Positions 31,331 through 46,817 of a stretch of DNA of 64,000 nt are shown here, piece after piece (the stretch's first letter is position 1; each line of letters starts with the position of its first letter). The stretch spans positions 186,001 to 250,000 of the forward strand of contig JAJRPM010000002.1 in NCBI GenBank assembly GCA_024280775.1, in the 5' to 3' direction. This DNA comes from Candidatus Zixiibacteriota bacterium (GTDB lineage: Bacteria; Zixibacteria; MSB-5A5; GN15; JACZUZ01). A program made the position numbers and the translations under genes. Below the pieces are notes generated by a model, which worked only from the letters and a program-made list of their open reading frames with translations, was not told the origin of the DNA and did not search any database.

Positions 31331-34300
31331 TTGAATGTTAGAGTTGTCAACGTAGAGGGATGTATAGCGTTGTTGGCAGGGAAACGAAAAAATATATTTT
31401 GGCTGATTTGCGCCGGTCTGATATATTCTTTGGTCGGATTAGGTCAAAGTGTCAGCGCCGATACTATTTCGGAGAACCTCCGGTTTAGTGGCGATAGCAC
31501 ACCCGTGGCGCTTGATGACGTTATTCTGTCATCTTCTGCGGTTGTTGTTGGCTCTGCGAGTCAATTACAAGTTCGCTTCACCACTCCGGATTTGGAGTTC
31601 CCCTTTGATTATAGAGTGGGGGTCACTTTTCCTACTGCGTTCGGGTTTGACAACGCCGTCAGCGCGGTGTTCAGTGATGATTCTCCGGCGCCTGACACTG
31701 AGATACAATTAATTGAGATAGTCGACCATACAGTAATCTTCACTTTCCGGCGGACGTTTTTTGCTCCAAAGGCCGGACAGGTAGGAATCATTGACATAAG
31801 TGGTGTGACGCTTCCGACTGCCTCAGGCGCTTATGCGGCGACTGTGTTCATCTCTGATATAGATTTTGTAGTTCTGGCCGGACCGACTTTTACCTCAGAG
31901 GTGACTTTGGTTCCGGATGTGGCTTCCTCGGTTGCATTGTCTCCTGTGGCAAATGTTGTTGTGACCGCCGGAGAGTTGCTTAGCTTTGTTGGCAATTCGG
32001 TTGACCAATATGGCAATGCGGTTTCTGATTCTACTTTGGATTGGAGATTGACCGACGATAGTGATTCATTAGGTGTTGTGACACCTGGTACTTTACTGGC
32101 GACAAAAACCGGAAGCGGCAGGGTTGTTGTTTCATCAGGGATTGCCGCAGACACTAGTGGCGTGATTACAGTTGTAGCAGGCGCATTGGCTCGTTTGGAA
32201 ATTGATATAGACCGTCAGCAATATGTAGGCGGCGGGATTTGTGGCAAGGGTTTTGTAAGAGCTTTTGATCAATTCGGTAATCCTAAAGGGAATTTCAGCG
32301 GGACAGATACGCTATTGGAGCTTATTGTTTCTGAAGGCACAATGGTTCCTGAGTCCTTGCCGATTAGCGCTTTTGATTCTAATGGTGTGCTCGATTTAGC
32401 TAAGGCTGGAGTGCAGTTTGAAGGGTTTGTCGGTGAGACTGACATTGTAGCGGGGCTTGGCTCAATTACAAGCGCCAGTGAGCCTGTCTCACTAGGCGGC
32501 ATGATCATTCGATTCCCGTACGACAATAGCCAGGTAACTGATCTACCCGCCGGGAAACGAATTAGTACAACTATCCTGCTGAATAGAGTCGGTTCGCCGC
32601 TACCTACGCCGGATTCGGTAACTGGTGAGTTTCCAGGAGGAGGTCGCTTTGCATTGACGAACCCTACTCATTTAAGAGTATCTGCCCGATTGCCAGATTT
32701 CCTTACTACGAGTGTACCGACAGATGGAGGTGATGACACTCTTCTAATTGTTCTGTATGGATCAATTTTGAAAGACTCGCTAACCAATGAGACAATTCAT
32801 ACGGTAAACACAGTGCGATTGCCCTTGCGAATTGTTGATAGGCATATAACTCATTCGACAGGGACCGATACACTATTGTCAGGGGCTCGGTATTTTGCCT
32901 ATGATGGTTTCGAGTTACACAGTCCGCTGTCTCCAGATAGACTCTTGGATGGTAGCGCTTTTGTTAGAGATACTTCGGGTAGGTTATTTCGCTTCGGTCA
33001 GTATGGTGGCGGAAACTATCGCTCGGATTCCAATGGTGTTGATCTTAGGTCCCGAATGGATATCCTTGGTGTTCCTCCTGAATTCGGGCCAGGGATTCAC
33101 GGCGTGACCGCGATAGTCACTCTAATTGACGGACCATACAAGTATCAGGATACAGCTTTCGCAGACTCACAGCTATATCTTGTTGAGCCAGCCTATTTTG
33201 TTGCAGATGCTTCCGAATTGTCTCCTGTGTCCACTAGTCCAGGTGATTCAGTTCTCTTTGCTCTCCCTGTTTCAGTGGAGCGCGTTTTTGACGATTCGAC
33301 AATATTTGCAGTGACTCTCCAATTGTATTCCGAGGATACAGTAATGAGCGAGATAGCGGCGGTATCTCGGGACAAGGACTCGATTATAAATGTGAAACCC
33401 ATCAAGTTTCCTATGGAATTCGCACAAACGAGTTGGGGAGTTCGTTTCGTGATGCAAATACTTGAAAGTCGAAGTGACAGGTATGACACTTTAGATCTGG
33501 GGCCAGATGTATTCCAAGTGGGACCGGTTAGGCAAATCAATGTTCTTGGGTTGAATCCTAGCGCTCCGAACTTTCCATTTGTGAGCGCTGGACAGGACTT
33601 GGGCTTAGTAGCGAGGATTGTTAATGATGCGCCATTTGTTGTGAGCGGTGTTCAGGTGGTTGTGGATGCAATGGTTGTTGATACTACTGTTGTGACTGTT
33701 GGTGATGTCGGCGCAGGTGATACTATTGATGTGACGATACCTTTTGCCGCAGGAAGTCCTGCTTCGCTTCAAACAGTTATTGCTCGAGTGACTTCAGCAA
33801 ACGGCGCTCGGGAGGAGTCTTCGGCTCAGATACAATTCACTGTTCAAAGTCCGGCTTTGTTGTCTCTGAAGGGGAATCTCAACTTGCAACAGGGCGCTGA
33901 AGGGCAGTTGGTTTCTGAGATTGGCTCTCCGTTGTCTCTGCAGTTGCAGATGGAGAATGCCGGTGAGGCTGATGTGACAGGTGGTAGCGCTCTGATTACC
34001 GCTACCGGAGCTGGTTTGGATTTTAGCGCTATTGTGGAGCTTTCTGCGCCAGTGGTTACTAAGAGTCTGGGTGTGGCGTCACTTGCGGGGATAGTCAATG
34101 TGACAGCTTCGATTTTGGATAAACCCCGGGAATTGAACAGCGGGCAGGATGCGTCATTTGCGGCGGGTAGCGCTATATTTGCTGAGAAAGTTTTGTTGGT
34201 AGATCGTGAATTGGTAGTGAACGCCAATATCACCCCGGGTGATACTTCGGCGGTTGCTTTCGGTGAACTTCGCGAGATGTTCTCTGTCGAGTTAAGCAAT

Positions 34301-35005
34301 GCCTCGCCGCTTGAGGATGCAGATATCGAGGTTCTAACAGTGGCTGTGTTGTTACATGACGCCAAGGCGAAGCTAATCAACCCGTCCGCGGTTATTGATG
34401 TGGCTCGTTCGGCGCTATTCAACGAACAAGGTAAGGCAATAGCGATACTCCGGGTCTCCGGTGATACATTGCTTATGGATATGACACCTAACACTCTGGG
34501 TGTGGGTGAGAAAGTGAATTACAAGTTTGTGGCTCAGTTTAGCGCCAAAAGTCTGATAAGAACTTTCTCGCTTAGTGTACCAACCGATGGAATCATCCTA
34601 AAGGCAATCAGCGGGCCGCGCGAGGGGGCGCGGTTCGTCGCTGAGGCTCCATCGGGAGCGCCGCCATTTGGCTCTAAGGAATACACATTGACTTCAGCGG
34701 CGTTCGTTGAGTCATTCCAGCCGCAGAATAATCCTTTCAATCCTGACAATGGCGCCACACAGTTTTCGTATACTCTAAGCTCTGACAATGATATTGAATT
34801 GGCAGTTTACACACTCACAGGAAAACTGGTTCGTCGTTTCAACTTTAGTTCCGGTTCGCAGTATGCGTCTTCGGGCGTTCAGACTCCCTCGTGGGACGGC
34901 AGAAATGGCAATGGCGATATTGTTCGTGACGGTGTGTATGTAGTGGCTCTTACGAACCTGGGTACAGGCGAGAAGGCGTTTCTGAAGCAGGCGGTGTTGC
35001 GATGA
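31331..35005 (+). CDS. Giant secreted beta-domain protein with Por (type IX) C-terminal sorting domain
   Basis: 1224 residues from TTG 31331. No in-frame ATG exists near the start. A TTG at 31370 (GAGGG 11 bases upstream) is an alternative. The signal peptide is about residues 18-44 (IFWLICAGLIYSLVGLG... SVSA). The body is a string of beta-rich segments, including an invasin/Big-like domain around 205-285 (AGELLSFVGNSVDQYGNAVSD) and repeated LSSDN-type Ig segments. No enzyme motif was seen. The last 90 residues form a FlgD-like sorting domain: NPFNPDNGATQFSY, then ELAVYTLTGKLVRRF, WDGRNGNGDIVRDGVYVV and a short basic end. Such domains direct proteins across the outer membrane in PorSS/T9SS bacteria. 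It overlaps the PorV-like gene by ATGA. Confidence 0.75.
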   Translation: MNVRVVNVEGCIALLAGKRKNIFWLICAGLIYSLVGLGQSVSADTISENLRFSGDSTPVALDDVILSSSAVVVGSASQLQVRFTTPDLEFPFDYRVGVTFPTAFGFDNAVSAVFSDDSPAPDTEIQLIEIVDHTVIFTFRRTFFAPKAGQVGIIDISGVTLPTASGAYAATVFISDIDFVVLAGPTFTSEVTLVPDVASSVALSPVANVVVTAGELLSFVGNSVDQYGNAVSDSTLDWRLTDDSDSLGVVTPGTLLATKTGSGRVVVSSGIAADTSGVITVVAGALARLEIDIDRQQYVGGGICGKGFVRAFDQFGNPKGNFSGTDTLLELIVSEGTMVPESLPISAFDSNGVLDLAKAGVQFEGFVGETDIVAGLGSITSASEPVSLGGMIIRFPYDNSQVTDLPAGKRISTTILLNRVGSPLPTPDSVTGEFPGGGRFALTNPTHLRVSARLPDFLTTSVPTDGGDDTLLIVLYGSILKDSLTNETIHTVNTVRLPLRIVDRHITHSTGTDTLLSGARYFAYDGFELHSPLSPDRLLDGSAFVRDTSGRLFRFGQYGGGNYRSDSNGVDLRSRMDILGVPPEFGPGIHGVTAIVTLIDGPYKYQDTAFADSQLYLVEPAYFVADASELSPVSTSPGDSVLFALPVSVERVFDDSTIFAVTLQLYSEDTVMSEIAAVSRDKDSIINVKPIKFPMEFAQTSWGVRFVMQILESRSDRYDTLDLGPDVFQVGPVRQINVLGLNPSAPNFPFVSAGQDLGLVARIVNDAPFVVSGVQVVVDAMVVDTTVVTVGDVGAGDTIDVTIPFAAGSPASLQTVIARVTSANGAREESSAQIQFTVQSPALLSLKGNLNLQQGAEGQLVSEIGSPLSLQLQMENAGEADVTGGSALITATGAGLDFSAIVELSAPVVTKSLGVASLAGIVNVTASILDKPRELNSGQDASFAAGSAIFAEKVLLVDRELVVNANITPGDTSAVAFGELREMFSVELSNASPLEDADIEVLTVAVLLHDAKAKLINPSAVIDVARSALFNEQGKAIAILRVSGDTLLMDMTPNTLGVGEKVNYKFVAQFSAKSLIRTFSLSVPTDGIILKAISGPREGARFVAEAPSGAPPFGSKEYTLTSAAFVESFQPQNNPFNPDNGATQFSYTLSSDNDIELAVYTLTGKLVRRFNFSSGSQYASSGVQTPSWDGRNGNGDIVRDGVYVVALTNLGTGEKAFLKQAVLR

Positions 35006-36977: not shown

Positions 36978-38954
36978 ATGTTTAGCAAAGCCATAAAAGA
37001 AACCAAATCAGATTTCCCGGCTGAGCTGTCTTCGCTGGAGACAATGCGCTCGGTGACTCGTCAGGCGCTAGAGGAGTCACGCTTGGATTCAGGTGACGTA
37101 GAGAAAGTTTGCCTGGCTCTTGAAGAGGCGGTGACAAATATCATTCGTCACGCCTATGTCACTACCTCCGGCTCGATTCAATTGAAAATCATCACCTATC
37201 CCAGTCGGGTTCTTATTTCATTGACCGATCAGGGGCGTCCTTATTTTCCTGAGAGTAAGCGCGATGTTCCTTTGTCGCGTTTGGTGGAGACTTCCCGCAA
37301 GGGCGGTTTGGGGCAGATGATGATTGAGAAGCTGATGGATGATGTGCAATATATTGTAGGTGATGACTACAACGAATTGCGCCTGACCAAACGGACACCT
37401 GGCAGGTTTTCGTCGGCGAATCCTTTGAAATGGCGCGCGATGAGTTTGCGCGCGCGTTTTTCGATGGTTACCGGTTTGATAGTTCTGCTAATTGTCGCTA
37501 GCTCATATTACTTTATTGAATCAAGAATGATAACCGGAATCAAGGGCCAGCAGGAAGATAATATGCGGGCGCTCACTGAGTCGGTGGCGTCTCTAGCAGG
37601 TAGATATATTCTCAATGGCCGAACCTATGTCGAATTTGACGAGTTGGCGTTCAGCCTTAGTTCGCAGATGACTGATCTTGCGCGAGTGACGCTGGTGGAT
37701 ACCGCCGGAACAATTCTGGCTGATTCGCGGGATATCAAATTGCTTCGCAAAAGGTACACTCCTCCTGCGGGTGTGAATTCCGGTATTGGAGCCGATGGCG
37801 AGACGCAGGAGTTCAAAGCGGATAATTTGAAAATGAGTTATTTGCGCACCCCGATTATGAATCAGGGGCTTAAGCTCGGCGAAGTGATTATTGAGTTTAG
37901 CTCATCGAGCGTGGATGCGAAGATTGCTGAGGCCCGCACCGAGACTTTTCTGCTGATATTTCTTGAGTTGTTACTGGGGATTGCCGGGATATACTTTTTG
38001 TCGAATTATTTTGTGCGTCCGATTATTGCGATAACCGAACAGGTTGAACGATTCGCCAAGGGTGGCGAGGCTGGCGAATTGCCAGTGGAGGCCGCAGAGG
38101 AATTCTTTGTCATCTCGAAAGCGCTAAATGAAATGATGACCAGTATTCGTCGCGATAGTGTCAAACGGGCCGAAAGTGAGAAACTCGACAAAGAGTTTGA
38201 GATAGCCGGTGAGATTCAAAAGACACTTATGCCGCGAAACATTCCGGCAATTCCGGGACTTGACCTCGGTTTCTTTTATCGTCCGGCTTCGCATTTGGGC
38301 GGCGATTTGTATGATGTCTTCGAGATAGGCGAGGGACGTTATTGTATGATTGTCGCTGATGTTTCAGGCAAGGGTGTGCCTGCTTCATTAGTGATGTCGG
38401 TTTTGCGCACAGTTGTGCGTTTCAAAGCTCCCGGCGAGCAGTCCCCGGCGGCGATTTTGCGCAAGGTTGAGGAGCATATAACGCTGGATATTCCAGAGGG
38501 AGTTTTTGTAACTGCCGGTCTTGCGGTCTATGACAGCCACACCCGCGAATTCCGTTTTGTCAGCGCCGGACATAACCCGCTTATTCATTATCGCAGCGCC
38601 GAAGCGAGATTTGAATTAGTGAATCCCAAGGGAGCGCCTTTGGGTTTGAGCTCATTCGCCACAGACGGCGTCGCCGCTGTGCATGAGGAAAAACGATTTG
38701 TACTTGCTGATGGCGATTTCCTTTGTGTCTACACTGATGGTCTTAGCGACCTGGCCGATGAGTCCGGCGCTCGTTTGGGTCCTGAGGGATTACTGGGCAT
38801 GTTGGAATCTGTCGCTACAGATGTTCAAACTCAGGCCGCCAGTGAGATTGTTGACACGCTGGTTGAGAAACTCGATTCCTATCGCGGAACTGAAAAACAG
38901 GACGATGATATTACCGTGCTGATAGGGAAGACCGCCGGCCCTGGTGTTGCCTAG
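36978..38954 (+). CDS. Membrane receptor fusing an RsbW-like kinase and an RsbU/SpoIIE-type phosphatase
   Basis: 658 residues. Residues 1-140 are a GHKL serine-kinase domain as in RsbW: N-box LEEAVTNIIRHAY (Glu50, Asn54), DQGRPYF and GGLGQMMIEKLMD. A membrane helix (about 162-180), an extracytoplasmic sensor domain of about 140 residues, a second helix (about 323-345) and HAMP (about 346-398) follow. The C-terminus is a PP2C/SpoIIE serine phosphatase (about 420-650) with metal ligands Asp443 in GGDLYDVF and Asp461 in DVSGKG, plus the DDDIT end. Kinase and phosphatase normally oppose each other on a STAS anti-anti-sigma protein. Here both are cytoplasmic ends of one receptor, and a STAS gene is next. 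Confidence 0.85.
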   Translation: MFSKAIKETKSDFPAELSSLETMRSVTRQALEESRLDSGDVEKVCLALEEAVTNIIRHAYVTTSGSIQLKIITYPSRVLISLTDQGRPYFPESKRDVPLSRLVETSRKGGLGQMMIEKLMDDVQYIVGDDYNELRLTKRTPGRFSSANPLKWRAMSLRARFSMVTGLIVLLIVASSYYFIESRMITGIKGQQEDNMRALTESVASLAGRYILNGRTYVEFDELAFSLSSQMTDLARVTLVDTAGTILADSRDIKLLRKRYTPPAGVNSGIGADGETQEFKADNLKMSYLRTPIMNQGLKLGEVIIEFSSSSVDAKIAEARTETFLLIFLELLLGIAGIYFLSNYFVRPIIAITEQVERFAKGGEAGELPVEAAEEFFVISKALNEMMTSIRRDSVKRAESEKLDKEFEIAGEIQKTLMPRNIPAIPGLDLGFFYRPASHLGGDLYDVFEIGEGRYCMIVADVSGKGVPASLVMSVLRTVVRFKAPGEQSPAAILRKVEEHITLDIPEGVFVTAGLAVYDSHTREFRFVSAGHNPLIHYRSAEARFELVNPKGAPLGLSSFATDGVAAVHEEKRFVLADGDFLCVYTDGLSDLADESGARLGPEGLLGMLESVATDVQTQAASEIVDTLVEKLDSYRGTEKQDDDITVLIGKTAGPGVA

Positions 38955-39009
38955 TCCTTTTGATTTGAAATCCCAATTACTTATTCAATTAGTATGCAAC
39001 TGGTTGCCT

Positions 39010-39030
39010 TCAAGTTTCACTTGTACTTGA
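39010..39030 (+). promoter_or_regulatory. Inverted repeat upstream of the STAS gene
   Basis: TCAAGT (39010-39015) and ACTTGA (39025-39030) form a perfect 6-bp inverted repeat with a 9-base centre that itself holds CACTTG. It lies 76 bases before the ATG. It could be a dimer-binding operator, perhaps for the STAS/winged-helix protein itself (inference). Confidence 0.3.
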
Positions 39031-39105
39031 GATGATTCTGTTAGATATTCCTACACTGAAAGCGGCGCCAGATTATTGGGGCGCAGAATCGGGTTATGAG
39101 GGATT

Positions 39106-39870
39106 ATGAGTCAGTCTGAAAATATACGCGTTTCGATTCTTGACCCTGAGAGTGAAGTCTCTACTGTTCGAGTGGATGGAGTGGTTGACACAATTACCTG
39201 CAAGGAAGTCGAGCGTGCAATCGAGGGCCTAATCAGCCGCGACAAGCATCGGATTGTAATGGACCTGGCCGGAGTCGACTACATTTCATCAGCTGGCTGG
39301 GGAGTCTTTATTTCGCATTTGAAAGAGGCGCGGGCTAACTCCGGAGACTTGCGTTTGGCGGGGATGATTCCAAATGTTCAGGAGATTTTTGAACTGCTGG
39401 AATTCGATACGATACTCAACAATTTTCAAAGCGCCTCACAGGCCGCGCAGAGTTTTCAGAATGAGTTGCCTGACCTTGAGGGTGGTCCACGAGCGCCTTC
39501 GCAGACTTCCAATGGTGGTCTCGATGAATTAGCGGCAATCGGAGTTGATACACCGCCACCGGACTTAGGAGCGGAGGCTTTTTCCTCTGAATCGCCAAGT
39601 CAACCGGCTCAGGCTACTGCCGGTCCGAGTAAGTCCCAGTCTCAATCTAATTCTCAATCCAACTCACCTCAGGATGCTTTGCTGGAGCTTATAGTTAGCG
39701 ATCCTTTTGCCACGATTTCAGAATTGAGCGACTCTCTTAGTCAGCGTCAATTCGGAGCGGGAGGCGCTCAAACAGGATGGTTTTGGGTCTTTAGGACGCT
39801 TTGGAAGCAAGGTCTGCTTTCTAAGCGATCGCGCTTCAAGTTGGCGCGACGGAATTCTCTGAGTAAATAG
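39106..39870 (+). CDS. STAS anti-anti-sigma-like protein with a C-terminal winged-helix-like domain
   Basis: 254 residues. Residues 1-120 are a STAS domain of the RsbV/SpoIIAA kind, with DYISSAGWGVFISHL carrying the phosphorylatable serines at 61 and 62. Residues about 120-190 are a disordered linker rich in Pro, Ser and Gln (SQSQSNSQSNSPQ). The last 60 residues (ISELSDSLSQRQFG, then WFWVFRTLWKQGLLSKRSRF) look like a small winged helix with a basic end. A DNA-binding output on an anti-anti-sigma protein would let phosphorylation act on transcription directly, without a sigma factor. It lies 151 bases after the kinase/phosphatase receptor. Confidence 0.72.
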   Translation: MSQSENIRVSILDPESEVSTVRVDGVVDTITCKEVERAIEGLISRDKHRIVMDLAGVDYISSAGWGVFISHLKEARANSGDLRLAGMIPNVQEIFELLEFDTILNNFQSASQAAQSFQNELPDLEGGPRAPSQTSNGGLDELAAIGVDTPPPDLGAEAFSSESPSQPAQATAGPSKSQSQSNSQSNSPQDALLELIVSDPFATISELSDSLSQRQFGAGGAQTGWFWVFRTLWKQGLLSKRSRFKLARRNSLSK

Positions 39871-39906
39871 CTAATAGCAATTTCATTTGTTGGGAGCTTA
39901 CCGGAC

Positions 39907-40932
39907 TTGATTTTTTCTGACTATCATACCGCGCTTACAGTAGCTTTAGCTGTCCTGCTACTGCTGTCTGTAATACGGCTCTATCAGATACGCACCGAAC
40001 GTCGCAGCGCCTCGTCAGGCGCTATCGATGCTCCCAACCCAACAGACAACCTGGCTGTTGGGGGCTCTGGCAATGGTATTGCCGAAGTTGATAGTGAAGC
40101 GGTAAGCAAATTGCTCCAGCACGAAGAAATCACTCCTTTGCTAAATGATCTGGCAAAAAAGATTGAATCAGACTTTGGCTTTAGCTGGACCGAGTTCTCG
40201 CTGGATTCAGGAGAGAGTAAAAGCGACAATTCGGCGGGGGATAAGGGAACTTACAGTAGGTTGATTCAAGTAGACGGGAATATGTCTGTCAGATTTCGCT
40301 GGCGCGGCGCCGGAGATGATTCGTCCAATGGTAGCCAATTGGATTCAGTGGAGCGCTTGACGCGCGCCTATGTACTTAACATCAGACGTATCCAGCATTA
40401 CAAAAGACTGGCGGATCGTGATCCGCTCACGGGATTATTCAACGCCGCTTACCTTCGGCATCGACTTAAAGAGGAAGTAGAGCGCTCCAAACGATACAGT
40501 CGCTCGGTGGGGGTTTTTATTCTCGATGTTGACCATTTCAAGGAAATAAATGATAATCTAGGGCATCTAACCGGAGATCAGGCGCTCAAATTTTTGGCGA
40601 CCTTGGTGGTTGAAAATGTCAGGTCGATTGATATTGTTTGCCGCTATGGTGGAGATGAATTATGCATTATTCTACCTGACGCCAACGAAGCTACTATTCG
40701 AGGGACAATGAGCCGCTTGCAGGGGTTGATTCGGAATGATTCAGTTGCCGCGACAGGTGTGGCCCTGACGGTTTCAATCGGTGGTTCTATTTCTATTTAT
40801 GGAGATTTAGCGCCGGAGGCCCTTTTCGAGGAAGCCGATAGGGCAATGCTGCTAGCCAAGCGACAGGGGCGGGATCAATGCTTTTTCAAAATTCCCCTAG
40901 GAGCTGAGGTCATTGGCAGTGATGAGGAGTAG
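39907..40932 (+). CDS. Diguanylate cyclase (GGDEF) with N-terminal membrane helix
   Basis: The TTG start at 39907 has GGGAG 10 bases upstream, and no ATG fits. 341 residues: a membrane helix (about 8-25), a variable region (about 50-160), and a GGDEF domain (about 170-335). The active site is GGDEL (248-252). The inhibitory I-site RxxD is present as Arg239-Ser-Ile-Asp242, five residues before it, so product feedback is expected. DPLTGLFNAAYL and DVDHFKEINDNLGHLTGDQAL are further hallmarks. It makes c-di-GMP and stands between the partner-switch genes and the polysaccharide operon, which is a plausible regulatory target. Confidence 0.9.
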   Translation: MIFSDYHTALTVALAVLLLLSVIRLYQIRTERRSASSGAIDAPNPTDNLAVGGSGNGIAEVDSEAVSKLLQHEEITPLLNDLAKKIESDFGFSWTEFSLDSGESKSDNSAGDKGTYSRLIQVDGNMSVRFRWRGAGDDSSNGSQLDSVERLTRAYVLNIRRIQHYKRLADRDPLTGLFNAAYLRHRLKEEVERSKRYSRSVGVFILDVDHFKEINDNLGHLTGDQALKFLATLVVENVRSIDIVCRYGGDELCIILPDANEATIRGTMSRLQGLIRNDSVAATGVALTVSIGGSISIYGDLAPEALFEEADRAMLLAKRQGRDQCFFKIPLGAEVIGSDEE

Positions 40933-41174
40933 CGGAGGTAACGAATCAGCGCTATAGGCAAATCTCTTGCGAAATCGGTCTTACTTTCGGGTTTAATCCT
41001 TTACAGCGATAATGTTACGGTATTAGCTTTCTTTTGGTATTGTCACAGGACTGCTAGAGGTATATTCAGGGCAGACTGCTCGTTATGGATACAGGCAAGA
41101 ATGATATGAACTTCGAGATTGAACCGACAGGTCATCCGGGGTGTAGGAAGACAAATGGGAGAATTGGTCAGGTC

Positions 41175-42182
41175 ATGTTTGCTAGAAAAAATAATACAGA
41201 ATTGAAGAAGTCCAGACAGAATAGATTGTGGCCTCGATTGTGTGGCCTTTTTGCTGTTTGCGGGATGATGTTTGGTTTGGGCCTCTTTGCTGAGGCTTCC
41301 GCCGCGACATACAAAATTGGCTCTGAGGATGTGTTGGAAATCCGTTTTTGGCAAGATCCGACATTGAACGCTCAGGTGCGAGTTCGTGATGATGGCAAGA
41401 TTGCGATAGACATAATCGGCGAACTACAAGCCTCTGGTCTCTCGGAGTCCGAGCTGGAGAAAGAAATCGTGCGACGGATTTCTCGAATCAATCCTCAGAT
41501 TTCGCAGGCTACTCTTCGGGTATTGCAGTATAACAGCCGGAAAGTCTTTGTCTTCGGTGAAGTGCAGGATCCGGGTAAATACACTTTCGAGAGTATCCCT
41601 GACCTTTGGGCTTTGATAAACGAAGCCGGCGGGGCCACCGATGTGGGAGACCTCAGTCGTGTTCGTATTATCAGAGGTGGATCGAATCAGGGGCAAGTAG
41701 AGATAGTTGACGTATCGGGCATGATATCTCGTGGTGAGGCCAATAAGCTTCCATCAATTGAGTCAGGCGATACTATTGAGCTCTTGCGAACCTTTGGCGG
41801 AGTTGTGAGGCCGAGAGTTAGCGGTAATATCGGCTTGAAGAACCTCTATTATATTATTGGCGAGGTCAATACTCCTGGAACCCATGCGCTGGAGCCGAAT
41901 ATTGATTTGCTGGATGCTATTGCGCTGGCCGGTGGTCCGACCGGGGCGGCGAATCTGAAGAAGGTTCGCGTGGTTAGCAAAGACGGAGACTATTCCCAAG
42001 TGGTTACTATCGATATAGAGGGATATACCAAGACAGGTCAGCCAGCGCGCTATCTTATTCGCCCTGAGGACACTATTGTCTTGCCAACCAGAAATGGCGG
42101 ATTCCTAGGCTTGGGTAGAGCCAGCGACTTTGTCGCGTTGGCCACCGGGTTATCGTCATTATTCCTGATATTGAATCGATAG
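41175..42182 (+). CDS. Polysaccharide export protein (Wza/XrtA-type, SLBB)
   Basis: Several in-frame ATGs exist (41085, 41106, 41175). 41175 is chosen because the next 45 residues then form a normal signal peptide ending near AEASAA. It has a polysaccharide export (Poly_export) domain starting YKIGSEDVLEIRFWQDP and two SLBB domains: VFVFGEVQDPGKYTFE with LINEAGGATDVGDLSRVRII, and YYIIGEVNTPGTHALE with LDAIALAGGPTGAANLKKVR. There is no lipobox Cys, unlike Wza. It probably forms the outer-membrane or periplasmic conduit for an exported polysaccharide. Confidence 0.85.
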   Translation: MFARKNNTELKKSRQNRLWPRLCGLFAVCGMMFGLGLFAEASAATYKIGSEDVLEIRFWQDPTLNAQVRVRDDGKIAIDIIGELQASGLSESELEKEIVRRISRINPQISQATLRVLQYNSRKVFVFGEVQDPGKYTFESIPDLWALINEAGGATDVGDLSRVRIIRGGSNQGQVEIVDVSGMISRGEANKLPSIESGDTIELLRTFGGVVRPRVSGNIGLKNLYYIIGEVNTPGTHALEPNIDLLDAIALAGGPTGAANLKKVRVVSKDGDYSQVVTIDIEGYTKTGQPARYLIRPEDTIVLPTRNGGFLGLGRASDFVALATGLSSLFLILNR

Positions 42183-42268
42183 GCGCTAAATGTCGATAAT
42201 TATGTATATGGTTATAGTATAGTAAACTTAGAGGCGTCTCCAGCAAATTAGAAGGTCAGAATACAGCA

Positions 42269-43765
42269 ATGCCAACTAGCAACGACAATAAGAATAATCC
42301 CACGGTTGATTTGCGCGATGTATTCGCGGCGGTGAGTAGACGCAAATGGTACATCGTGATTCCGTTCGTGCTGACTCTGGCGTCTGCGATTGGTGGTTCC
42401 TTTTTGATGGAGTCGGCCTACTATTCAACTACAATCATGAGCTACAATAACAATCCCTCGTTGATTAAGCCGCTTAGCGGTTTGGTGGCGCAACGAGGAA
42501 GTGGTCGGATGACTTCCGATGACAGACGTCGTCAACTAGCGGCGATGACAAACGAGATACTTTCCTCCAAGGTTTTGGGGCGTTTGATTCGAGAGATGAA
42601 GTTTGACCAAAACCCGCAGGTTGAGCAAGAGGCGCAGAGGATTCGCTCCCAAAATCCTCGTATGCCGCTTGATAAGATTAAGATGGAGCTTCTGATAAAA
42701 AAGATGCGTGAGTCGATTGAAGTGGAATTCGCCGGGCAGGGGCAATTGCGACTGGGAGTCTATGATAAAGACCCGCTAGTCGCTCAGAAGGCCGCCTCAC
42801 GTTTAACGGACATATACATCGAAGAGCGCACATTACAGGACCTTGGCGCAGTGCGAAGCGCTCAGGAATTGACTGACGACCAACTGAACAAGTATGAGTC
42901 TCAACTGCGGGTGGCTCTCGAAAAGAAGGCCGCCGCCGAGAAAGACTACCTTCAGCTTCAGATTGACGAAACTATTATCTCCGAGGAGAATCGCAAAAAG
43001 ATTGGCGCGGCAATAGATGAGATAACAAGTGAGATCAGCGATTTGAATCGTGATGAGATGGCGCTAGTAGGCAAGCTCAACACAGTTGGGAAATTGACTC
43101 CACCGTCGAGTTCAAATCTACGTTCGTTGAAGAAGCAACTCGGCGAGGATAGTCGTTCTTTGGTCAATCTGATGGGCAAATACGTTTGGTCGGAGAGAGT
43201 GGTTCTCAATGGAACTATTGATCTGAACCGTAAGCTGATTGCGATGGAAAAGGAAGTTGAGCGGTTGGTTGATGAGAAATACACCAATGTTGAGCCTGCT
43301 ATCAGGAGTGATCTGCGGAAGTATTTTGTGCTTATGGAGCGCTTGAGTTTTTTGCATGATCATCGCGCGTCATTGAAGCAGTCATTCAGCAGTGTCCAAC
43401 AGCGGGCAAATGAAATACCGGTGGCCAAAGCTTTGCTGGATCAAATAGATAGAGAAGTCAAGGATGCCCGTCAGAATCTGGCTTTGTTCAAGCAACAGGA
43501 AACCAGTAATCAGTTGAGGCAAGATATTATTCACAGCGCTAATTCGCGCTACCAGATTATTGAGCCCGCTGTTGCGCCGCTAGCTCCGGCGAAGCCGAAT
43601 CGAGTTAAGATTAGTATCATGGGAGGTATCCTGGGAGTGATTTTGGGCGGGGCGGCCGCTTTGTTACGTGAGTTAATGGATGGCTCATTTAGAAAGACCA
43701 CTGAGGTTGAGGATGTGCTAGGAGTGCCGGTGTTGGCTACTATCCCTAATATTGAATCCCTATAG
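42269..43765 (+). CDS. Polysaccharide chain-length determinant (Wzz/GumC family)
   Basis: 498 residues with the usual plan: N-terminal membrane helix (about 28-50) after DLRDVFAAVSRRKWYIV, a long periplasmic coiled-coil domain (about 55-450), and a C-terminal helix around SIMGGILGVILGGAAALL. It ends with a short cytoplasmic segment (TTEVEDVLGVPVLATIP). There is no fused kinase. The tyrosine kinase is a separate gene two positions on, as in XrtA/EpsH-type operons. Confidence 0.88.
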   Translation: MPTSNDNKNNPTVDLRDVFAAVSRRKWYIVIPFVLTLASAIGGSFLMESAYYSTTIMSYNNNPSLIKPLSGLVAQRGSGRMTSDDRRRQLAAMTNEILSSKVLGRLIREMKFDQNPQVEQEAQRIRSQNPRMPLDKIKMELLIKKMRESIEVEFAGQGQLRLGVYDKDPLVAQKAASRLTDIYIEERTLQDLGAVRSAQELTDDQLNKYESQLRVALEKKAAAEKDYLQLQIDETIISEENRKKIGAAIDEITSEISDLNRDEMALVGKLNTVGKLTPPSSSNLRSLKKQLGEDSRSLVNLMGKYVWSERVVLNGTIDLNRKLIAMEKEVERLVDEKYTNVEPAIRSDLRKYFVLMERLSFLHDHRASLKQSFSSVQQRANEIPVAKALLDQIDREVKDARQNLALFKQQETSNQLRQDIIHSANSRYQIIEPAVAPLAPAKPNRVKISIMGGILGVILGGAAALLRELMDGSFRKTTEVEDVLGVPVLATIPNIESL

Positions 43766-43898
43766 GTAGCTCAAAACCTGCCCCAGCTGATTTCTTGAAT
43801 ATGGATATTATGAAGTATATATCGAACATTACTATTGAGCGCCGCGAGCACAGGATGTGCGAATATTTGCGTCGCGATACTAATGGAGGATCTCTTTG

Positions 43899-45080
43899 AT
43901 GGCTATGCATGGCGAAAGATCTATCGGCGATAGAGCGGCAACCGAAGCAATATCCGAAACCGCAAGGTTCACAGTATCAGGACGCGAGTTTGCTATTGAA
44001 TCTATGTTTTCGGAAACGGAGAACTCAGTAACAACCGGACTCTATGAAAACGGTCGTCTGATATTCTCATCGCTGGAGCCAACTTTAGATAAGGCTGTAT
44101 CAGGGGATGTCAACGCCTGTGTTAGCAATGCTGTTACGGCTTTGAAAGCTCAAATCGAGGAGATGTTTTCTTATTTGAAGCAAGTTGAAGAAGAGGGTTC
44201 TTCACAGCTTATTCGTTACTTGGCAGATGTTTTCGAGTCGCGGGGGATTTATGATGAAGCCGAGCAGTTGTATGGTATTGCCTCGGATTTGAATCCTACT
44301 GACGCTGAAGGGCTGTATTTTCATGGATTGTGTTTGACGGAAATGGGTGACTATGTCCGTGCTTGCGAGAAGTTATCTGAAGCGGTTAGCCAAAAACCGA
44401 TGTATGCGGATTATCGAAACGCCTATGGTTTGGCGCTGGCATGGTTTGGCAAAATTTCAGAGAGTAGAAAACAGCTTGAACATGCGTTGGAGCTGAACAC
44501 ATACTATGTGGACGCTTATTATTCTTCGGCTCTGATATGTCTGTTCAATGGTGTCAAAGGGATAGATAAGGAGTACGCAAAGGATTTTGTCTCTCGAGCC
44601 AAGAGCCTCTTCACTAAGGCAACAGTGATTGATTCTAGTTACGCAACTGCGGAATTTCAGCTGGCGATGGATACTTTGGACAAAGGGGCAGTGCGAGAGG
44701 CTTTCAGTCAATTCCGCAGAGTACGCGAAACCATAGCCGCCGGGGCAAAGAGCTCTTATGAGGACCGTCGAACTCGATTCCTGGCGACATTACAAACTTC
44801 CGGTAAACTGGCTATTGAAGCGCAAATTCAATTGCTACAACGCCAACTAGAAGAGAATCCTCATTATGTGGATGTCTCTTTTCAATTGGCTTTGGCGCGG
44901 TTTCAAGCAAGTGTTTGCGAATGGAAGACCGGGATTGAGCAGTTAAAAGCGGTTCTTGAGTTAAATCCGGAGTTTTACCAAGCGATTCGTGCGCATGATT
45001 ATGCCTTCGAAATGCTGGCTGAAATGGAAAATACGACGAAGAACATGGAGTATTCCACAGGGAAAAGCTCTTTGGGATAG
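43899..45080 (+). CDS. TPR protein of the polysaccharide operon
   Basis: The ATG at 43899 with GGAGG 9 bases upstream is preferred to the TTG at 43896. 393 residues. No signal peptide is obvious. The N-terminal 70 residues form a small domain with FTVSGREFAIESMF. From about 95 on there are TPR units: YLADVFESRGIYDEAEQLYG, YFHGLCLTEMGDYVRACEKL, YGLALAWFGKISESRKQLEHAL, and a later QLALARFQASVCEWKTGIEQ. It lies between the Wzz-like gene and the kinase, so it may be a cytoplasmic assembly scaffold. No specific family is recognised. Confidence 0.65.
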   Translation: MAMHGERSIGDRAATEAISETARFTVSGREFAIESMFSETENSVTTGLYENGRLIFSSLEPTLDKAVSGDVNACVSNAVTALKAQIEEMFSYLKQVEEEGSSQLIRYLADVFESRGIYDEAEQLYGIASDLNPTDAEGLYFHGLCLTEMGDYVRACEKLSEAVSQKPMYADYRNAYGLALAWFGKISESRKQLEHALELNTYYVDAYYSSALICLFNGVKGIDKEYAKDFVSRAKSLFTKATVIDSSYATAEFQLAMDTLDKGAVREAFSQFRRVRETIAAGAKSSYEDRRTRFLATLQTSGKLAIEAQIQLLQRQLEENPHYVDVSFQLALARFQASVCEWKTGIEQLKAVLELNPEFYQAIRAHDYAFEMLAEMENTTKNMEYSTGKSSLG

Positions 45081-45083
45081 AAG

Positions 45084-45839
45084 ATGAAAAGAGAGAATCA
45101 CGCTATATCAATAATTGATCGATTCGATTTGGAATCGAGCGCCGCCACTGAGTTCAGACGGTTGATTTATAATCTCAATGGAGCTTATGCCGCCAAGGTC
45201 AAACGCGCCGGCGGTGAGGCCGCTGGTTCGAGGGGAATGGATATTACCGGCGACAGGAAGACAATACTGGTGACTTCGGCAGTGGTGTCTGAGGGCAAGT
45301 CCACCACCACTGCATTCCTTGGGATTTGCTCTGCGAAACTGAAAGAACGCCGTACTTTGCTAATAGACTGTGATATGCGGCGTCCTAATTTACATCGTTT
45401 GTTTTCAATGGAGCGCGAGCAAGGCTTGGTGGAATATTTGACCGAAGGACTTCCTAGTTCAAGAATGATAAAGAAGACCGAGTTAGACAAACTCGATATG
45501 ATTACCGCCGGAAAGCATATTGACAATCCTACGGAAGTCTTCGACGCAACTCGTATTGGCAAACTCATCGAAGAGGTTGCCGATATGTATGATTTCATTG
45601 TCGTTGATTCTCCACCGGTGTTGCCAGTTTCTGATCCTATGCTATTGGCGAATGTCGTTGACGGTGTGTTGCTGGTTGTTAAGGCCGGTGAGACGCACCG
45701 TGATGTTGTCATACGGGCGCGAGACTTACTCGCCGGTTCAGGCGATAGATTGTTGGGGGTTGTTCTTAATAATCTCAATAATGCGCTACCCTATTACTTT
45801 AGCCCCGGTTACTCCAGTTACGAGAATGTCAAAAACTGA
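45084..45839 (+). CDS. BY-type tyrosine autokinase (CpsD/CapB, XrtA-associated)
   Basis: 251 residues. Walker A is SEGKST (Lys72), Walker A' LLIDCDMRRPN (Asp95, Asp97), Walker B near FIVVDSPPV. The C-terminus has a tyrosine cluster (LPYYFSPGYSSYENVKN) that is the expected autophosphorylation site. BY-kinases cycle with a Wzz-type partner and control polysaccharide polymerisation and export. Begins 3 bases after the TPR gene. Confidence 0.9.
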   Translation: MKRENHAISIIDRFDLESSAATEFRRLIYNLNGAYAAKVKRAGGEAAGSRGMDITGDRKTILVTSAVVSEGKSTTTAFLGICSAKLKERRTLLIDCDMRRPNLHRLFSMEREQGLVEYLTEGLPSSRMIKKTELDKLDMITAGKHIDNPTEVFDATRIGKLIEEVADMYDFIVVDSPPVLPVSDPMLLANVVDGVLLVVKAGETHRDVVIRARDLLAGSGDRLLGVVLNNLNNALPYYFSPGYSSYENVKN

Positions 45840-45923
45840 ACGCCTGATTGCCTTCAGAATGAAACTGACATTTGAAACCCTCACTTACACTGTTCCTAAG
45901 AACTAGACAGGATTGAATAGTAC

Positions 45924-46817
45924 ATGCGCGGCGCCTCATCGTCTAATAGTTCAATGAGGAATGTTTTGACTGTGGACCTGGAAGAATGGTTTGTAGTCGA
46001 GATACTTTCTGGTAGGTTTGATAGAGACTCCTGGCAGGGACTCCCCTCCAGAGTCGAAGACAATACGTATCTTCTACTGGAGTTATTTGAGCGTAAGCGC
46101 GTTTTCGCGACATTCTTTTCACTTGGGTGGGTTGCAGAGCGTCATCCTCAACTAATGAAAGACATCGTCGCCGCCGGTCATGAAATCGGCTGCCACAGCT
46201 ATTGGCACCGCCGGGTTGATGAACTTACGCAGAAGGAATTCAGAGAGGACACTCAGAGGGCGCTGGATGTAATTGGTGATGTTTGCGGTGTTCAGCCTGA
46301 GGGCTATCGCGCTCCCAGTTGGTCAATAAACTCCTCGAACACCTGGGCTCTTGAGACTCTATTTGATTTGGGGTTCAAGTATGACTCTTCGATTTTTCCA
46401 GTCAAACACGATTTCTATGGAGATACAAACGCGCCGCGTCAGTTGGTGAGATTAGCCTTAAGTGAAGGCAAGAGTCTGTTGGAGTTTCCGGCCTCAACAG
46501 TGCGTCTGTTCGGGCGCAATTTGCCTGTCGCCGGAGGAGGATATTTGAGACACTCTCCGTATTGGTATAGTTCTATGATGATAAGACGACTCAATCGTGA
46601 TTCTCAGCCGGCGATGGTTTATGTGCATCCCTGGGAGTTTGATTTGTCGCATCCTGAAATCGATGGAATTGGAATGCGGGACAGGTTTCGACAGTATTCG
46701 TCAATTAAGAGTTTCCAAAGAAAGTTAGAACGACTGATTGATGAGTTTAACTTTATTCCAATCGGCGCGTACATAGACCATATCAGCCGTCGACCGATAG
46801 GATTCGGCAGAGAGTGA
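45924..46817 (+). CDS. Polysaccharide deacetylase, XrtA/PEP-CTERM type
   Basis: 297 residues of the NodB-like fold. Motif 1 is TVDLEEWF (Asp18), motif 2 is GCHSYWHRRVDE (His91 and His95 as metal ligands), and motif 3 is GYRAPSWSIN. The C-terminal FRQYSSIKSFQRKLERLIDE region resembles DUF3473 of XrtA-system deacetylases. No signal peptide, so it would act in the cytoplasm or be exported another way. AGGATTG precedes the ATG. It would remove acetyl groups from the polysaccharide. No glycosyltransferases are in this window, so the synthesis genes must be elsewhere. Confidence 0.85.
   Translation: MRGASSSNSSMRNVLTVDLEEWFVVEILSGRFDRDSWQGLPSRVEDNTYLLLELFERKRVFATFFSLGWVAERHPQLMKDIVAAGHEIGCHSYWHRRVDELTQKEFREDTQRALDVIGDVCGVQPEGYRAPSWSINSSNTWALETLFDLGFKYDSSIFPVKHDFYGDTNAPRQLVRLALSEGKSLLEFPASTVRLFGRNLPVAGGGYLRHSPYWYSSMMIRRLNRDSQPAMVYVHPWEFDLSHPEIDGIGMRDRFRQYSSIKSFQRKLERLIDEFNFIPIGAYIDHISRRPIGFGRE

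Follow-up and report, generated by a model that had tools for sequence, protein, structure and literature searches.

How can a partner switch that holds its kinase and its phosphatase in one receptor, and whose STAS protein ends in a helix-turn-helix (HTH) tail, pass on a signal without a sigma factor, and why does the gene of the STAS protein so often appear to end early in related genomes? These questions are raised by three open reading frames (ORFs) in a stretch of 64,000 nucleotides (nt) from a Candidatus Zixiibacteriota bacterium, contig JAJRPM010000002.1, positions 186,001-250,000, which we call the window; all coordinates below are window positions. The ORFs, here named P1 (receptor), P2 (STAS protein) and P3 (GGDEF protein), are all present where the first-pass annotation placed them (Table 1), and they are followed by an exopolysaccharide (EPS) operon. 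Our reading, to which we assign a probability of about 0.7, is that they form a sigma-free partner switch in which P1 would set the phosphorylation state of P2 with an output to the EPS genes, and that P2 is split into two forms by slippage in sister families. This reading builds on domains, conserved residues, gene order, the site of a run of ten adenines (A10) and the pattern of reading frames around it.

The N-terminal part of P1 matches the Pfam family HATPase_c_2 (E 9e-25) and the C-terminal part SpoIIE (E 5e-42). The N, G1 and G2 boxes of the kinase are present, and the kinase residues and metal-binding aspartates listed in Table 1 are invariant across 21 orthologues. The N-terminus has the fold and boxes of an RsbW/SpoIIAB-type serine kinase and is predicted to act on the STAS serine of P2, and the C-terminus has the domain and the aspartates of a SpoIIE/RsbU phosphatase of the PP2C type. 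The HAMP and sCache_3_2 matches are weak in the window protein; HAMP is found in 21 of 21 orthologues (best 1e-12) and sCache_3_2 in 14 of 21 (best 4e-8). The first-pass annotation was right to place both enzymes on either side of an extracytoplasmic sensor in one polypeptide; domains and catalytic residues are conserved. Its view that such a union is unusual has to be given up, as SypE and HsbR are already known examples.

SypE of Vibrio fischeri joins an N-terminal RsbW-type kinase and a C-terminal PP2C phosphatase and acts on the STAS protein SypA, which regulates a polysaccharide locus in a manner that is not linked to any known sigma factor (PMC10120452, PMC4517449). P1 and P2 share with this pair the two enzymes in one protein, the STAS partner and the polysaccharide locus. 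However, SypE carries a cytoplasmic receiver domain in its middle, whereas P1 carries a membrane-spanning Cache-HAMP sensor, and SypA is a STAS domain only, whereas P2 adds the HTH tail. Judged by its domains, P1 is SypE-like in its working mode, yet not a SypE. In Pseudomonas aeruginosa, HsbR both phosphorylates and dephosphorylates the STAS protein HsbA, and HsbA in turn binds a diguanylate cyclase (PMC5085249, PMC6482189). This set of HsbR, HsbA and HsbD resembles our module in having one kinase/phosphatase protein, a STAS protein and a diguanylate cyclase; unlike P1 and P2, HsbR is a response regulator fed by HptB, and HsbA is STAS only and also binds FlgM. By analogy, the P1-P2 module is akin to both of these partner switches. 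In the SiaABCD pathway of P. aeruginosa, kinase and phosphatase are separate proteins, unlike in P1, and P1 and P3 stay far below the NCBIfam equivalog cut-offs for SiaA (60 of 700 bits) and SiaD (140 of 290 bits). The likeness here is that a PP2C sensor, a kinase, a phospho-switch protein and a diguanylate cyclase act in one pathway (PMC8457831, PMC7647112).

P2 contains a STAS domain (Pfam, aa 17-110, E 7e-16), which AlphaFold2 models with a pLDDT >90. Its S61-S62 pair is invariant among the orthologues; in the alignment, S62 falls on Ser58, the residue that is phosphorylated in SpoIIAA. P2 accordingly has both the fold and the serine of a STAS anti-sigma antagonist, and Ser62 is its predicted phospho-acceptor. 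Several phospho-serines had been proposed for P2; one equivalent serine stands, followed by an alanine, and the plural was an overstatement. No sigma factor is encoded in the P1-P2-P3 module or its operon, the ten genes of this genome with a sigma-70 region 2 being located on other contigs, and the anti-sigma and sigma partners of a STAS antagonist are missing from the module. This agrees with the earlier suggestion that the STAS protein could act without a sigma factor.

In the AlphaFold2 model of P2, a confident STAS domain is joined by a disordered linker to a confident four-helix tail. Modelled alone with 76 orthologues, the tail again shows four helices and no strands (pLDDT 87, pTM 0.73). 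It is basic, and over the 76 orthologues D-P-F and R are invariant and I, E, W, L, L and F nearly so. The Pfam family HTH_Tnp_Tc3_2 is matched by 43 of the 76 tails (best 1.7e-6) and HTH_24 by 12. A PDB sequence search with the tail had no significant match (best 2ia0, E 0.18), and the Foldseek matches in PDB, with E-values of at least 1.4, were mostly HTH regulators of the FapR, Fur, ArgR and AsnC types. Model and family matches together indicate that the tail is very probably an all-helical, Tc3-transposase-like DNA-binding HTH. Of the winged helix that had been predicted, the conserved HTH-like, DNA-binding-like character is borne out; the model has no beta wing, and the best match is HTH_Tnp_Tc3_2, so that strictly speaking the tail is no winged helix. 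A further family (f2; L048, L051, L054, L057, L059, L065) has a STAS-HTH gene without an adjoining P1, mostly beside a subtilisin-like gene.

Outside the clade of the window, P1 is 900-1200 aa long (L072, L074, L078, L086-L088, L124, L128, L137, L149), and 9-10 of 12 such proteins carry transposase-like HTH domains (HTH_28, HTH_23, HTH_29, HTH_Tnp_1). These lie beyond the phosphatase and are absent from P1 of the window's clade; two orthologues also have TPRs. Taken with the P2 tail, the HTH domains of these outgroup proteins would mean that DNA-binding outputs appeared twice in the history of the system.

P3 has a GGDEF domain (aa 169-324, E 3e-38) with an RSID I-site 5 residues ahead of GGDEL and an N-terminal membrane segment. 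Gene order was compared across 97 distinct loci, drawn both from the order to which the window belongs and from named GTDB genomes, many of the incomplete loci being contig ends. P1 precedes the STAS gene in 81 loci and a GGDEF gene follows it in 64; P1, STAS, GGDEF and EPS exporter genes occur together in 51. The order P1-P2-P3-EPS is conserved across Zixibacteria (Candidatus Zixiibacteriota, candidate division Zixibacteria, GN15), and the P1-STAS pair, again preceded by the TPR gene, is also present in Calditrichota, KSB1 and Caldithrix. The succession of GGDEF enzyme and polysaccharide operon in the first-pass annotation is confirmed by this comparison, and so is the conserved order behind the signal-to-cyclic di-GMP (c-di-GMP)-to-polysaccharide pathway that it proposed; the c-di-GMP step of that pathway is drawn from the neighbourhood. 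In one subgroup a ParA/MinD-like ATPase gene lies between P1 and the STAS gene (L072:5225-6007, L078:4206-4982, L087:5186-5923 and others).

A possible, though rather unlikely, alternative is an ordinary switch of the SypE or HsbR kind, whose STAS protein would target the GGDEF enzyme, with the HTH tail serving only in protein-protein contacts or localisation. Phosphorylated HsbA binds the diguanylate cyclase HsbD (PMC5085249), a GGDEF gene adjoins in most Zixibacteria, and among the NCBIfam equivalogs P3 and P1 resemble SiaD and SiaA, at the low scores given above. The tail, however, is basic and HTH-like, and it is not tied to a GGDEF neighbour, since alignments extend into the P2 tail at loci that have no GGDEF gene.

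The apparent early end of the STAS gene concerns the families coded f3 and f4, in which the ORF often seemed to stop at about 130 aa because an A-run lies exactly at the junction of STAS domain and tail. Two sister families of the window's lineage provide 54 distinct run-bearing STAS genes (A10 in 46, A9 in 7, A11 in 1) at 35-65 percent GC. Downstream of the run, the tail is read in frame 0 in 24 genes, in -1 in 27 and in +1 in 3; in none of the 54 does a stop in the tail's frame separate it from the run. The about 47 STAS genes without the run have at most A7, and none of them has an out-of-frame tail (five run-less "genes", ORF 300, were excluded from the count as being probably P1 itself, with its own YISSAG motif). 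The same motif, e.g. LTRVTVVD, is found 3' of the run in in-frame and out-of-frame genes alike. In 26 out-of-frame genes, the 1310 codons between run and tail contain no stop, which has a probability of about 10^-37 if stops are as frequent as in the neighbouring frames. On the upstream side, a stop closes the tail frame within 1-25 codons of the run in nearly all of these genes. The first stop in the two frames not used by the tail comes 5-6 codons after the run; in in-frame genes these frames close on average after 6.2 codons, versus 21 when counted from 20 codons further on. All 54 orthologues thus combine a dnaX-type run with one frame that stays open beyond it while the others soon close, a pattern that is very probably the signature of transcriptional slippage giving STAS-only and STAS-HTH forms. 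We also considered STAS domain and tail as two separately started genes and rejected this, since in 12 of these 26 genes no ATG or GTG lies between run and tail, and the tail frame reaches back to the run without a stop. A synonymously broken version of the A10 run reads AAGAAGAAG.

On a tree of P1, a neighbour gene independent of P2, the run is a trait of one clade in which the frame state changed at least 12 times while run and tail were kept; this number is soft, since the tree was made quickly and long branches separate its groups. Within the clade the run is missing from L135 alone, and this gene has also lost its tail; L075 carries its A10 at nt 530.

A second isoform could also arise without slippage of RNA polymerase, if ribosomes shifted to the -1 frame at the A-run as they do in E. 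coli dnaX. Such frameshifting would be helped by the tandem AAA slippery codons within A10, by the G that follows the run in 44 of 48 genes and by -1 being the commonest out-of-frame state. We nevertheless regard it as unlikely and prefer polymerase slippage, because the phase of the run varies among genes, three genes require the +1 frame, and neither Shine-Dalgarno-like motifs near the run (11 of 48, against a rate of 0.16) nor downstream structures (mean z -0.13) are enriched. Phase variation, with replication slippage at the run turning the tail on and off between cells, is a very improbable explanation. Homopolymer runs are typical of contingency loci, and at least 12 frame flips have occurred, but A10 is present in 46 of the 54 genes and equally in both frame states, so that most flips are indels outside the run; moreover, the run recurs in the housekeeping genes dnaX and coaBC, where on/off switching makes little sense. 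That the out-of-frame genes are pseudogenes or assembly errors is hardly credible even though most of the genomes are metagenome-assembled, as there are 30 such genes from many genera and assemblies, the tail frame is open over the 1310 codons with conserved tail residues, and the equal run length in both states means that A10 is not a homopolymer miscall; assembly error as the cause of the frame shifts was rejected since run length does not track frame.

Pattern searches on both strands of each genome were used to count other A-runs. Exact A10 occurs 0-5 times per genome: two sites in G006 (STAS gene and coaBC), three in G028 (STAS gene, coaBC and dnaX) and four in G034, including the same three genes. 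The pattern of the STAS gene returns in coaBC: most of the 35 genes sampled have A10-A11 where CoaC meets CoaB, with an in-frame continuation in some and a -1 continuation in others, and the three genes in which the run is lost (L296, L300, L303) are all split. The coaBC genes of relatives examined were L216, L220, L224, L226, L230-L251 and L294-L304. In dnaX, part of the genomes have A9-A10, and both other frames end at about 390-415 aa of 555-632. The window genome's own dnaX (L292, G000:C17) has A9 and gives 632 residues versus 397 and 406, counted from a conserved N-terminal motif, which suggests that dnaX gamma and tau are made by slippage, also in this genome. Other dnaX genes with A9-A10 and quick stops are L219, L221, L225, L263, L285 and L293. 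A10 also recurs between the end of yidC and the start of mnmE (L215, L217, L222, L223; gene names by eye from translations), where it may lie in a leader or start-codon region. Going by these sequences, the Zixibacteria lineage very probably uses slippage, dnaX being its built-in positive control, and has very probably come to use it for the STAS gene too in the sister families, but not for that of the window. We consider it likely that A10 at the interdomain linker sets the isoform ratio in the two families as a cassette shared with coaBC, dnaX and almost no other gene, and that the frames 0, -1 and +1 flip freely as slippage would make both forms anyway.

In the mechanism that we favour, the Cache-HAMP receptor P1 would balance its own kinase against its phosphatase and so set Ser62 phosphorylation on P2. 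The phospho-state would then pick the partner of the STAS protein, that is P1, DNA-bound complexes reached through the HTH tail or, probably, the neighbouring GGDEF enzyme, and the choice of partner would tune the expression or the c-di-GMP-driven activity of the EPS genes. RNA polymerase of the sister families would slip on A10 between STAS domain and tail and yield a mixture of STAS-only protein, competing for kinase, phosphatase and partners, and STAS-HTH protein, which would pass the signal on to DNA and possibly also to the GGDEF enzyme. The window's own genome encodes the full fusion only. Of this scheme, we infer phospho-transfer, partners, DNA binding, and slippage itself with its ratio.

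Several points weigh against this reading. The GGDEF gene is absent from the P1-STAS pair in Calditrichota/KSB1 (12 of 13 run-less loci), and the coupling to c-di-GMP is derived from gene order. The HTH assignment is modest, given the share of tails that match HTH_Tnp_Tc3_2 and the E-values of the fold matches, and an A10 followed by G also suits ribosomal -1 slippage. Finally, the window's own P2 is a plain STAS-tail fusion with no A-run at the junction, there being no A or T run of 8 or more anywhere in the window, so slippage does not apply to the window itself.

Table 1. Module and neighbouring genes in the window.
Feature	Position	Strand	Remarks
P1, bifunctional receptor, 658 aa	36978..38954	+	HATPase_c_2 kinase, transmembrane segment (TM), Cache, TM, HAMP, SpoIIE phosphatase
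P1 RsbW-type kinase domain, aa 13-138	37014..37391	+	Pfam; E50, N54, H58, D84xG86, GGLG109-112 conserved
P1 extracytoplasmic single-Cache-like sensor, aa 188-320	37539..37937	+	between hydrophobic segments aa 155-173 and 323-341
P1 HAMP, aa 340-391	37995..38150	+	
P1 PP2C/SpoIIE phosphatase, aa 452-649	38331..38924	+	D443, D461, D587, D643, D644 invariant
P2, STAS protein with C-terminal HTH, 254 aa	39106..39870	+	
P2 Ser62 codon, predicted phospho-acceptor	39289..39291	+	invariant; alignment with SpoIIAA Ser58
P2 disordered linker, aa 123-185	39472..39660	+	start of linker is the A10 position in orthologues
P2 C-terminal HTH tail, aa 185-254	39658..39867	+	four helices, no beta wing
P3, membrane-anchored GGDEF protein, 341 aa	39907..40932	+	TTG start; GGDEL aa 248, RSID I-site aa 239
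EPS operon, whole	41085..46817	+	
Poly_export/SLBB (EPS operon)	41085-42182	+	
Wzz/GNVR (EPS operon)	42269-43765	+	
TPR (EPS operon)	43896-45080	+	
BY-kinase-like ATPase (EPS operon)	45084-45839	+	
XrtA-type polysaccharide deacetylase (EPS operon)	45924-46817	+	above NCBIfam cut-off
Outer-membrane/TPR protein upstream of P1	35002..36879	+	ahead of P1 in nearly all orthologous loci, incl. Calditrichota/KSB1

The genes 3' of P3 are an XrtA-like EPS export/synthesis operon. On the other side, a large surface protein with a FlgD-type C-terminus (31331-35005) and the outer-membrane/TPR protein precede P1 in most orthologous loci, and the two may supply the signal sensed by the Cache domain. The window's genome holds further partner-switch sets: a 303-aa kinase-STAS fusion beside a SpoIIE protein (G000:C1:79626-81096), separate SpoIIE, RsbW and STAS proteins (G000:C16:87231-90735) and a SpoIIE and STAS pair (G000:C10:99947-103148).

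Few bacterial genes are known to use transcriptional slippage. In Shigella mxiE, slippage is required for the long form of a regulator (described in PMC1088944), as it would be in the out-of-frame STAS genes. The mxiE run consists of U's and is found in a single lineage, whereas the STAS genes have an A-run; mxiE orthologues are not known to switch between in-frame and out-of-frame states. The textbook case is dnaX of Thermus thermophilus, in which an A9-A10 run with early stops in both other frames gives short and long products (PMC5009743, PMC1088944). The STAS genes share with it the internal A-run and the quick stops in both other frames (PMC5009743), but its long form is made in the 0 frame, whereas theirs lies in any of the three frames depending on the species. 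In the open-access literature, most subscription papers being outside the search, there was no report joining STAS proteins/anti-sigma antagonists or coaBC with slippage or programmed frameshifting, and likewise no relevant report joining Zixibacteria with frameshifting.

The new parts are thus the Cache-HAMP receptor between the two enzymes, the HTH on the STAS protein and the two putative STAS isoforms made by slippage in relatives. Slippage itself is a known mechanism; what is new is the class of gene, in which the reading frame is unusually free to vary. A slippage site that outlives at least 12 frame changes suggests that selection keeps a mixed transcript population rather than the genomic frame. 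It is therefore to be predicted that annotated "split" STAS and coaBC genes of the phylum are single genes with two products, and the ratio of decoy STAS to DNA-binding STAS may be a way of tuning partner switching. The module of the window itself would be a clean case, from a phylum without cultured members, of a partner switch that works without a sigma factor and is linked to both a receptor and an exopolysaccharide operon.

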